In this document: piece after piece, positions 6,319 to 40,938 of the stretch
How the letters are laid out: every line of letters begins with the position of its first letter
Numbering within the stretch: position 1 is the first letter of the stretch
Source of the DNA: Microbacteriaceae bacterium
Lineage (GTDB): Bacteria; Actinomycetota; Actinomycetes; Actinomycetales; Microbacteriaceae
Direction: 5' to 3'
Length of the DNA: 41,937 nucleotides
Assembly (NCBI GenBank): GCA_025464895.1
Contig: JAODMG010000112.1
Coordinates: 1 to 41,937 of the forward strand
Translations under genes and position numbers: made by a program
Notes under the pieces: model-generated
What the model saw: only the letters and a program-made list of their open reading frames with translations
What the model was told of the DNA's origin: nothing
Database searches by the model: none

Positions 6319-6391
6319 CAGGGCGGACAGGACTTGAACCTGCAACCTGCGGTTTTGGAGACCGCTGCTCTACCAATTGAGCCACCGCCCT
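6319..6391 (-). tRNA. trnW: tRNA-Trp (anticodon CCA)
   Basis: A 73-nucleotide cloverleaf on the minus strand. The acceptor stem AGGGCGG (5') pairs with CCGCCCT (3') and is followed by discriminator G. The anticodon arm is GCGGT-CTCCAAA-ACCGC with anticodon CCA, and the T-loop GTTCAAGTC is present. The 3' CCA is not encoded. Placement immediately upstream of secE-nusG is the normal order in many bacteria, including Mycobacterium. Confidence -1.
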
Positions 6392-12825: not shown

Positions 12826-13209
12826 TCAGACCGCGCTTGGGACCAGTTCCGCGCGGATCGGCCACTTGTCACCGTCGAGGATGAACTGGGCGCATCGTCC
12901 GGTCACCGCGTTGACGACGATCGGCGCCATCAGGTTGATCGTCGTTCGGTCGTCTCCCGGGTTGGCCACGACGAGCACCATGGCCTCCTCGGGGGTCTCG
13001 AGTTGGAGCGACTCGGCCTGCTCGTCCGAGATCTCCGGCGCGTAGTCGGGCAAGAGGATTCCGGCATCCAGGACGAACATCCTGGTGCCGTCGCCGCCGG
13101 TCGACCGCAACGAGTAGAGACCGAGGGCGCCGTCGATGTCGTCGAGGACGAAGTCGACGGCCGGGGCGAACCCGGGAGGCGACGCGATGAAAGTCAGTGC
13201 GGCGCTCAA
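12826..13209 (-). CDS. fliW: Flagellar assembly factor FliW
   Basis: A 127-residue FliW, a beta-barrel protein that binds CsrA and flagellin in turn. Free flagellin titrates FliW away, and released CsrA then blocks flagellin translation. Family features include the central ARMFVLD-like RMFVLDAGILLPDYAPEIS, the strand VLVVANPGDDRTTINLMAPIVVNAVTGRCAQFIL (typical Leu-x-APIVIN pattern) and a short C-terminus. It is the last gene of the leftward flgN-flgK-flgL-fliW operon and overlaps flgL by four bases. The matching csrA is at 40672 at the far end of the cluster, so the complete switch is encoded here. Confidence -1.
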   Translation of the reverse strand: MSAALTFIASPPGFAPAVDFVLDDIDGALGLYSLRSTGGDGTRMFVLDAGILLPDYAPEISDEQAESLQLETPEEAMVLVVANPGDDRTTINLMAPIVVNAVTGRCAQFILDGDKWPIRAELVPSAV

Positions 13210-16471: not shown

Positions 16472-17293
16472 ATGAACCGTTCAGAGCGCAACACACTGGT
16501 CGTAGAGAATCTGCCGCTCGTCGGCTACCTCGTCTCGGAACTGTGCGCACGGGCCAGCCACCTGTCACGCGACGACCTCGCGTCGGTCGGAGCACTCGGA
16601 CTGATCTCCGCTGCCGAATCGTTCAAAGCCGAGCTCGGCGTGCCGTTCGGCGCCTTCGCCCGCCAGCGCATCCTCGGTGCATTCGCGGATGACATGCGCT
16701 CGAGCGACTGGGCCACCCGTTCCGCCCGCCGCCGCATCAAGGAGACCCTCGCCGTCGGGGAGTCGCTGACATCCGCGCTCGGACGCACCCCGACCGTCGA
16801 CGAGATCGCCTCGGCCCTCGGAGTGGAAAGAAGCGTCGCGGTCGAGGCGATCGCGGATGCGTCGCGCACGCTGACGACGCTGGACGACACGACGGCCGAG
16901 CTGCTGATCGCCGATACCGCGCTTCCAGAAGAGACAGTGCTCGAAGCGGAGCGCCTGGCCTACCTGCGCGCCGCGGTCGAATCGCTGCCGGAGAAGATGC
17001 GCCACATCGTGACGAGCATCTACTTCGACGACAGGGCGGTCAAAGACGTGGCGTCGGAGCTCGGCACCACCCACTCCGCCGTGTCCCAGCAGCGCGCAGA
17101 GGCAATCCGCCTCCTAAGGGACGGGCTGCGCACTCACTACTCCGACGATCCGGAGATCGAGCCCGTCCCGGAATCGCGTATCGCGGTCGCCAGTCGCAAC
17201 GCCTACCTGTCGCGCCTCTCCGACCACGCTGCCGTCGCCATGACGAAGCTCGGCTTCGATCAGTCGGCACCGGCGCGCTCCGCGGCCTCTTAG
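16472..17293 (+). CDS. fliA: RNA polymerase sigma factor, FliA/WhiG (sigma-28) family
   Basis: A 273-residue sigma factor. Region 2 is seen in LVGYLVSELCARA through DLASVGALGLISAAESFK and FGAFARQRILGAFADDMRSSDW, the typical FliA 2.2-2.4 pattern. Region 3 contains TPTVDEIASALG and region 4 the helix-turn-helix AVKDVASELGTTHSAVSQQRAEAIRLLRDGL. A 40-residue tail follows. FliA factors read TAAA-N15-GCCGATAA promoters, and five such sites are present around the flagellar genes here. No anti-sigma FlgM gene is recognisable in the window. GGGGG 12-16 bases before the ATG is the only Shine-Dalgarno candidate. Transcription is probably governed by the repeat-rich region upstream. Confidence -1.
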   Translation: MNRSERNTLVVENLPLVGYLVSELCARASHLSRDDLASVGALGLISAAESFKAELGVPFGAFARQRILGAFADDMRSSDWATRSARRRIKETLAVGESLTSALGRTPTVDEIASALGVERSVAVEAIADASRTLTTLDDTTAELLIADTALPEETVLEAERLAYLRAAVESLPEKMRHIVTSIYFDDRAVKDVASELGTTHSAVSQQRAEAIRLLRDGLRTHYSDDPEIEPVPESRIAVASRNAYLSRLSDHAAVAMTKLGFDQSAPARSAAS

Positions 17294-17348: not shown

Positions 17349-17375
17349 TAACGCTCGGCATTCGCGTGCCGATAG
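17349..17375 (+). promoter_or_regulatory. Sigma-28 (FliA) type promoter of flagellin
   Basis: TAAC (17349-17352), 15 bases, GCCGATAG (17368-17375). Transcription should start near 17382, leaving a leader of about 56 bases that begins almost directly with the GGA hairpin. Confidence -1.
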
Positions 17376-17384
17376 CTAGAAGCG

Positions 17385-17428
17385 TCAGCCCATGGATGGG
17401 CTGAAGTTACGCACCCAGATCACGGAGG
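17385..17428 (+). promoter_or_regulatory. Candidate CsrA-binding sites in the flagellin mRNA leader
   Basis: TCAGCCCA (17385-17392) pairs perfectly with TGGGCTGA (17397-17404) and leaves the tetraloop UGGA, that is an AUGGAU presented at the hairpin top. A second ANGGA, ACGGA (17422-17426), is fused to the Shine-Dalgarno GGAGG (17424-17428) nine bases before the flagellin ATG. CsrA dimers bind GGA in hairpin loops and bridge two sites, one of them over the ribosome-binding site. FliW and CsrA are both encoded in this cluster, so flagellin translational control is likely. Confidence -1.
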
Positions 17429-17437
17429 AAAAACATC

Positions 17438-18583
17438 ATGGGTATGACCATCAACACCAACATTTCGGCTCTCACCGCATATCGCAACCTGTCTACGACG
17501 CAGAAGGACATGTCGAAGTCCCTGGAGAAGCTCTCCAGTGGTCTCCGCATCAACCGCGCTGCAGACGACGCAGCCGGGCTCGCGATCTCGCAGGGGCTGA
17601 AGTCCCAGGTCGGTGGCCTCACGGTCGCCGCCCGCAACGCGCAGGACGGCATCAGCGTCGCGCAGACCGCAGAAGGTTCGCTCGGCCAGGTGCAGTCCAT
17701 CCTGCAGCGGCTTCGTGACCTCAGTGTTCAGGCCGGTAACGACTCGAACAATGTGGACTCGCGCAAGGCCATCACCACGGAAGCGACCTCGCTCACCCAG
17801 GAGCTCGGCCGCATTTCGACGTCGACCAACTTCAACGGCATCAACCTGCTCGACGGAACGGCCGGAACCGCTGGCAAGCTGACCTTCCAGGTCGGCGCGA
17901 ACGGCTCGAGCGACAACCAGATCACGATCGACCTCTCGAGCGCGAACGTTGGCACCGTCGTAACGGCAATCTCCACCAACGTGGGCGCCGACTTTGCCGT
18001 CACCCCGGGAACCGTTGCTGGAGCACAGACGTTCTCGAGCAAAAGCGCCGACGGATCGACCACGAGCGTCACGACCGGCGCCCTCGCCGGGACGTATGCA
18101 ACGACCGCTGACGTCGTCAACGCGCTCAACTCGGACAGCAAGTTCTCGGGCCACTTTTTGGCGAGCGCGTCGGCCACAGCCGGCAAGATCACCGTCAAGG
18201 CACTCGACGGTGGCACTGTCCAAACTACGGCACCGGGAACCGGTGTTGTCGCCGGTACGGCCAACGCCGCTGGTGCCGGGGGCCTGGACTTCTCCAGTGC
18301 GGCCGGCGCGCAGGCGTCGATCACGATCCTGGACGCTCAGATCACCTCGATCTCGAGCGCTCGGGCCACCCTCGGTGCCAGCCAGAACCGCCTTGAGTAC
18401 ACCATCACCAACCTGAACATCTCCAAGGAGAACCTGACGGCGTCGCAGTCGCAGATCACCGACGTCGACATGGCGTCGGAGATGGTCAACTTCACCCGCG
18501 ACAACATCCTGTCGCAGGCTGGTACGGCAATGCTCGCCCAGGCGAACCAGTCCAACTCCGGAGTCCTGAAGCTCCTGCAGTAG
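17438..18583 (+). CDS. fliC: Flagellin
   Basis: A 381-residue filament protein. The conserved N-terminal D0/D1 region is MTINTNISALTAYRNL through KLSSGLRINRAADDAAGLAISQGLKSQ, and the C-terminal D1/D0 region is LGASQNRLEYTITNLNISKENLTASQSQITDVDMASEMVNFTRDNILSQAGTAMLAQANQSNSGVLKLLQ. Residues about 150-290 are a Thr/Ala/Ser-rich surface domain. There is no signal peptide; export is through the flagellar type III system. It is monocistronic, between a sigma-28 promoter and a long terminator hairpin. The ATG at 17438 is used (GGAGG nine bases upstream); a second ATG two codons later is the more common family start. Confidence -1.
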   Translation: MGMTINTNISALTAYRNLSTTQKDMSKSLEKLSSGLRINRAADDAAGLAISQGLKSQVGGLTVAARNAQDGISVAQTAEGSLGQVQSILQRLRDLSVQAGNDSNNVDSRKAITTEATSLTQELGRISTSTNFNGINLLDGTAGTAGKLTFQVGANGSSDNQITIDLSSANVGTVVTAISTNVGADFAVTPGTVAGAQTFSSKSADGSTTSVTTGALAGTYATTADVVNALNSDSKFSGHFLASASATAGKITVKALDGGTVQTTAPGTGVVAGTANAAGAGGLDFSSAAGAQASITILDAQITSISSARATLGASQNRLEYTITNLNISKENLTASQSQITDVDMASEMVNFTRDNILSQAGTAMLAQANQSNSGVLKLLQ

Positions 18584-40671: not shown

Positions 40672-40938
40672 ATGTTGGTATTGACGCGGAGGGCCGGGGA
40701 GCGGGTGCTCATCGGGGACGACATCGTCATCACAATCCTCGACACGAAGGGAGATGGCATCCGTATCGGCATCGAAGCCCCGCGCGGTGTGAACATCCAG
40801 CGGGACGAGATCGTGCGCGCCGTCAGCGAGGCGAATGTCGCGGCGACGCAGGCGAATCCCGACGCGGAGAACCGCATCAAGGCCGCGCTCGGGCTGGTTC
40901 CACCGACTGCTCCGGCCGCTGTTCCTGCCGCGGACTAG
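40672..40938 (+). CDS. csrA: Translational regulator CsrA
   Basis: An 88-residue CsrA. The N-terminal strands MLVLTRRAGERVLIGDDIVITIL carry the RNA-binding Leu4 and Arg6, and the fifth strand NIQRDEIVRAV contains the conserved arginine. The C-terminus is about 15 residues longer than in Escherichia coli (PPTAPAAVPAAD). CsrA dimers bind GGA motifs near ribosome-binding sites; FliW antagonises it in Gram-positives. A fitting target is the flagellin leader at 17385-17428. It is the last gene of the flagellar cluster, and its TAG shares the palindrome CTAG with the stop of the convergent SRAP gene. Confidence -1.
   Translation: MLVLTRRAGERVLIGDDIVITILDTKGDGIRIGIEAPRGVNIQRDEIVRAVSEANVAATQANPDAENRIKAALGLVPPTAPAAVPAAD

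Follow-up and report, generated by a model that had tools for sequence, protein, structure and literature searches.

Background

Experiments in Firmicutes and in Campylobacter have established how CsrA and its antagonist FliW control flagellin. The hag leader of Bacillus subtilis carries two CsrA sites (BS1 and BS2), one of them over the Shine-Dalgarno (SD) sequence, and FliW antagonises CsrA; a CsrA dimer can bridge sites that are 10-63 nt apart (PMC7652899). In Campylobacter jejuni, the sigma-28 leader of the flaA mRNA is 45 nt long and forms two stem-loops that each contain ANGGA, the second lying over the ribosome-binding site; coIP, gel shift, footprinting and mutants have established the CsrA sites, FliW is the CsrA antagonist, and the flaA mRNA itself acts as an antagonist of CsrA (PMC4894983). 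AYGGAY loops are also found in TwoAYGGAY RNA (RF01731), a proposed CsrA binder (PMC4333381).

For Actinobacteria, a BS2-like CsrA site over the flagellin SD sequence was proposed in 2008 for Kineococcus radiotolerans (PMC2587704), and a study of actinobacterial flagella from 2023 had CsrA and FliW on its list of genes to look for, with leaders unmentioned (PMC10746217). No CsrA-FliW experiments in Actinobacteria, CsrA biochemistry included, were found in the open-licence literature, and no earlier description of the upstream hairpin reported here, or of its conservation; one may exist elsewhere.

Sequence data and analysis

The window is the whole stretch of 41,937 nucleotides of a Microbacteriaceae genome that was analysed; all coordinates refer to it. 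For comparison, 78 named flagellin loci were taken from a genome collection (Microbacteriaceae, Cellulomonadaceae, Micrococcaceae, Geodermatophilaceae, Micromonosporaceae and others), and further leaders were obtained by whole-genome searches at order, class and phylum level, giving a total of 172 distinct leaders. A leader was counted as carrying the hairpin when it had an ANGGAN loop and a stem score of at least 4; dinucleotide-preserving shuffles served as the control. The covariance model comprised the upstream hairpin (P1) and the rest of the leader, and was built from 42 training rows that include the window itself. Co-occurrence of genes was evaluated in a sample of 297 genomes spread over the phylum.

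Flagellin locus and gene content

The flagellin gene (fliC/hag homologue; 17438-18583, forward strand; Pfam Flagellin_N and Flagellin_C) encodes 381 aa from a start codon read from the sequence at 17438-17440, and its relatives reach up to 72% identity. Directly upstream of the flagellin promoter lies a gene of the sigma-70 family (16472-17293, forward strand; Pfam Sigma70_r2 and Sigma70_r4), a putative sigma-28/FliA gene by its position; FliD and FliS are encoded downstream of flagellin (Pfam). A tRNA gene (6319-6391, reverse strand; Rfam RF00005) is located to the left of the flagellar genes.

The first-pass annotation had placed both csrA and fliW in the flagellin cluster, and Pfam confirms both. 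The csrA gene (40672-40938, forward strand; Pfam CsrA, 77.9 bits) is the sole CsrA gene of the draft genome and encodes 88 aa with a C-terminal extension; the protein has L4, R6 and R44, which are RNA-contact residues. The fliW gene (12826-13209, reverse strand; Pfam FliW, 78.6 bits) encodes a product that matches the FliW chain of the FliW-CsrA complex 5dmb. Residues 2-71 of the host CsrA align with the CsrA of this complex (5dmb_D), and an interaction of the host CsrA with FliW is predicted.

Promoter and upstream hairpin

The flagellin gene is preceded by a sigma-28-like promoter consisting of TAAC (17349-17352), a 15-nt spacer and GCCGATAG (17368-17375), from which, by the usual spacing, the transcript would start at about 17381-17383 and have a leader of about 56 nt. 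The 5'-proximal hairpin P1, an upstream CsrA-type site identified by sequence, folding and comparison, reads UCAGCCCA-UGGA-UGGGCUGA (17385-17404, forward strand). Direct reading of the sequence bears out the perfect stem of 8 bp and the UGGA loop that had been described before; the innermost pair of the stem, A17392-U17397, may alternatively be counted to a hexaloop AUGGAU, and the upstream ANGGA of the leader is at 17392-17396. The six central pairs have pair probabilities of about 1. Three ANGGAN hairpins with a stem score of at least 6 are present on both strands of the window together; P1 is the strongest of these and the only one that precedes an identified gene start. The stability of the single-sequence fold of the leader did not exceed that of shuffles (z -1.13), which is uninformative, and the Rfam search of the leader yielded no match at gathering score, merely a sub-threshold, chance-level match to an unrelated family.

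An ORF (17392-17718) that starts at the AUG inside P1 was rejected because conservation of this AUG is lacking, with ACG in its place in many relatives, and P1 was ruled out as an intrinsic terminator because no U run follows.

P1 had been proposed to lie at the extreme 5' end of the transcript, and the comparison favours this position for the inferred transcript start. A CCGAT-like -10 box was found for 127 of the 147 unique P1 hairpins; its distance to the P1 loop is 23 nt in 73 of these and 22-24 nt in 95. The stem starts about 10 nt past the -10 box, and therefore would lie a few nt inside the transcript.

Downstream site and second hairpin

The downstream CsrA-type site is an ACGGA (17422-17426) fused to the SD sequence GGAGGA (17424-17429); the combined element, ACGGAGGA (17422-17429, forward strand), agrees with the earlier reading of a second ANGGA merged with the SD sequence. 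In the leader alignment, (U)CANGGAGGA at the SD position is nearly invariant. The distance from the GGA of the P1 loop to the GGA of the SD site is 30 nt, which is inside the 10-63 nt bridging range of a CsrA dimer (PMC7652899).

A second hairpin, P2, absent from the first-pass annotation, is predicted between ACCCA (17413-17417, forward strand) and the complementary UGGGU (17439-17443, forward strand), which takes in codon 2 and the last two letters (UG) of the start codon; the loop of P2 holds the SD site. The pairing probability of P2 ranges overall from 0.44 to 0.999, depending on the length of coding sequence included: it is at least 0.9 when the leader is folded as far as codon 3, and 0.44-0.68 with more coding sequence. 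Complementarity of the leader to its own start (score of at least 4.5) was found in 77 of 135 leaders versus 26 in shuffles. In some relatives, a change of codon 2 from Gly to Ser or Ala goes along with a matching change in the P2 box. Nocardioides-like leaders of the same class (family f24) have AGU as codon 2 and a GACUCA box that pairs with UGAGUC, and one leader with GGU as codon 2 (L164) retains GACUCA, with U-G wobble pairing possible; compensatory pairing is also seen in Cellulomonas (GAGCCA/UGGCUC; L012) and in a Cryobacterium paralogue (GCCCA/UGGGC; L043). Among the 135 leaders, pairing is not restored in the lineages with AUGGCA, AUGGCC or AUGUCG, and P2 is not universal. As a predicted hairpin, it probably exists in the host genome.

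Conservation and covariation of P1

An ANGGAN hairpin is present in 148 of the 172 actinobacterial flagellin leaders, versus 1.4 expected after shuffling, and in every leader that could be obtained from the 78 closest named loci (weakest stem, L059). The loop is of the CsrA type, AYGGAY, in 122 of the 147 unique hairpins. Since ANGGA was the search criterion, the invariance of the loop is by itself partly circular; the unfiltered list of close leaders has the same A-N-GGA loop. Conservation of the loop GGA in relatives had been set in advance as a point on which the interpretation could fall; the GGA is kept, and the interpretation survived. The covariation search that had been suggested alongside was also run, and the stem co-varies.

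The arms of P1 vary by lineage, for example CAGCCC/GGGCUG, CCGGACC/GGGCCGG (one mismatch) and, in Geodermatophilus-type leaders, cccgcagc-ACGGAU-gcagcggg. Pairing at stem positions 1 to 8 amounts to 100, 100, 78, 98, 67, 76, 75 and 62%, respectively, of the 147 unique hairpins, and none of 500 permutations of the 3' arms reached the observed value at any of the eight positions. The RNAalifold consensus on a MAFFT alignment predicted only two P1 pairs, probably because position 3 or 5 of the stem is mispaired in many leaders; by itself it would not identify P1, and pairs were therefore counted explicitly. Two-sided changes occur in 29 cells of 42 aligned leaders, versus 7.7 when shuffled and 0-10 in slid registers, and parsimony over 133 leaders placed on a flagellin tree gives approximately 81 pair-keeping two-sided changes versus 8-22 in slid registers, with no pairing breaks at stem positions 1, 2 and 4. 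On this comparative evidence, P1 is a real, selected RNA element.

Four leaders from other classes (L138, L179, L181 and L184) are without a GGA hairpin and belong to genomes that carry csrA and fliW, so P1 can be dispensed with in part of the phylum; at the SD position, the same four retain ACGGAGG or AUGGAGG. A different upstream hairpin, GGC-AAGGA(A/U)-GCC, precedes flagellin in seven further leaders of other classes (L122, L127, L131, L133, L123, L125 and L190), which suggests an older or convergent CsrA site. Where flagellin paralogues are close neighbours (L010, L011, L150, L152 and L156), the leader hairpin is repeated in front of each.

Specificity of the leader model and co-occurrence of genes

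Searched against the host genome, the covariance model scored 71.5 bits at flagellin, and the next match (17.5 bits) was near chance; a scan of the window with filters off was also run. Matches at E <= 0.01 were obtained in 107 of 297 genomes of the order. Of 30 strong loci inspected with a script, 29 had a flagellin start after the match. The model misses simpler CsrA targets, so flagellin is not established as the one target of CsrA. A CsrB homologue was not found in the draft host genome, and TwoAYGGAY (RF01731) had no match there, in a search whose positive controls were likewise silent.

In the phylum sample of 297 genomes, flagellin was detected in 49, csrA in 59 and fliW in 48; csrA and fliW are both present in 46 of the 49 flagellin-bearing genomes. 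Among 59 genomes picked for flagellin-type matches, 56 have csrA. Twelve of 59 csrA-bearing Actinomycetota genomes are without a detected flagellin gene, and CsrA may have another role in these. No clean csrA-less flagellated genome, as a natural control, was available among the genomes examined, because the apparent exceptions (G250, G316, G368, G374 and G576) are doubtful, being drafts or having partial genes or unclear matches, and because one of them (G368, an 80% complete genome) still retains the P1 hairpin.

Proposed function and alternatives

The flagellin leader is, with high probability, a CsrA-operated translational switch that is relieved by FliW. Observed are the two sites and their conservation, the covariation of P1, the spacing from the promoter, and genes for both CsrA and FliW. 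The sigma-28 transcript would begin a few nt upstream of P1, whose loop, A(C/U)GGA(U/C), CsrA would bind with high affinity; from this anchor the CsrA dimer could extend to the ANGGA that follows 30 nt further on and, bound within the SD sequence, would block ribosome binding and repress translation. The weaker P2 probably shows the SD site in its loop and keeps the start codon closed. Export of flagellin would free FliW, which would bind CsrA and lift the repression, and the outcome would be a flagellin homeostasis loop as in Bacillus and Campylobacter.

Two of the features of P1 would also suit a generic stabilising stem-loop that protects the 5' end against 5'-end-dependent decay, as in Escherichia coli ompA, with an incidental GGA: its place at the inferred 5' end and its almost fixed distance (23 nt) to the -10 box, which a purely translational site would not need. 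A stabiliser, however, requires neither a second ANGGA in the SD sequence nor the co-occurrence of csrA and fliW, and the retention of the A-N-GGA loop across lineages while the stem is free to change, in the unfiltered close set too, makes this explanation very unlikely. P1 could also be read as a DNA palindrome, i.e. an operator for a transcription factor just past the promoter, for which the inverted repeat at approximately +4 to +23 of the inferred transcript would be well placed; a DNA-binding protein would not favour arms that differ while their complementarity is kept, G-U pairs included, and the ANGGAN centre is asymmetric; the operator is the least probable of the alternatives considered.

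The CsrA sites could, furthermore, make the abundant flagellin mRNA mainly a sponge for CsrA rather than serve the control of flagellin, for which the antagonism of CsrA by C. jejuni flaA mRNA is a precedent (PMC4894983) and with which the failure to find a CsrB homologue in the draft genome is compatible. CsrA bound at the ANGGA within the SD sequence should affect initiation, which counts against a sponge, as does the result that the leader-sized model found no second target in the genome, a search that simpler CsrA targets would escape; we consider a sponge slightly less improbable than the operator and somewhat more improbable than the stabiliser.

The translational switch is thus the preferred reading, very probably as the form that the CsrA-FliW flagellin switch takes in actinobacteria. 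Because the hairpin is common to most of the flagellated actinobacteria examined, flagellin output in these is probably limited as in Bacillus and Campylobacter. A wider proposal is tentative, and we rate it as rather doubtful: that the 5'-end P1 and the start-codon hairpin form one module, an undescribed leader family on the flagellin mRNAs of most flagellated Actinomycetota, with CsrA as essentially a single-mRNA regulator that also controls transcript stability.

With a hairpin that co-varies across the phylum, the predicted RNA half of the circuit is conserved alongside csrA and fliW, and the conservation of P1 supports flagellin control as an old role of CsrA. The comparison also pinpoints sites that can be tested in genera that grow in culture (Curtobacterium, Cellulomonas, Cryobacterium), and the covariance model is a means of finding flagellin leaders in high-GC genomes.

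Comparison with known systems

The host leader shares the AYGGAY loop with TwoAYGGAY RNA, which, unlike it, is a candidate sRNA of other bacteria. The proposal for K. radiotolerans, in the passage concerned, is about the SD site in one genome only, and includes no upstream hairpin, comparison or FliW.

As in B. subtilis hag, the host leader has two predicted CsrA sites, the downstream one overlapping the SD sequence; in contrast to hag, its upstream site is presented by a strong hairpin at the predicted 5' end, and about 27 kb separate csrA from fliW in the cluster. The logic of B. subtilis, to which the first-pass annotation had likened the leader, is recovered in the two sites, the SD overlap and the presence of csrA and fliW, but the layout of C. 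jejuni flaA is even closer. With flaA it has in common a short leader, here from a predicted sigma-28 promoter, two ANGGA sites, the upstream one in a stem-loop and the one at the ribosome-binding site probably in another, pairs backed by compensatory changes, and the presence of fliW and csrA. It differs from flaA in its sequences and phylum, in being known from sequence comparison alone, and in its second helix, which is weaker and pairs with the start codon region. On the features tested, the host leader belongs with the hag and flaA leaders, as a predicted target of CsrA binding.
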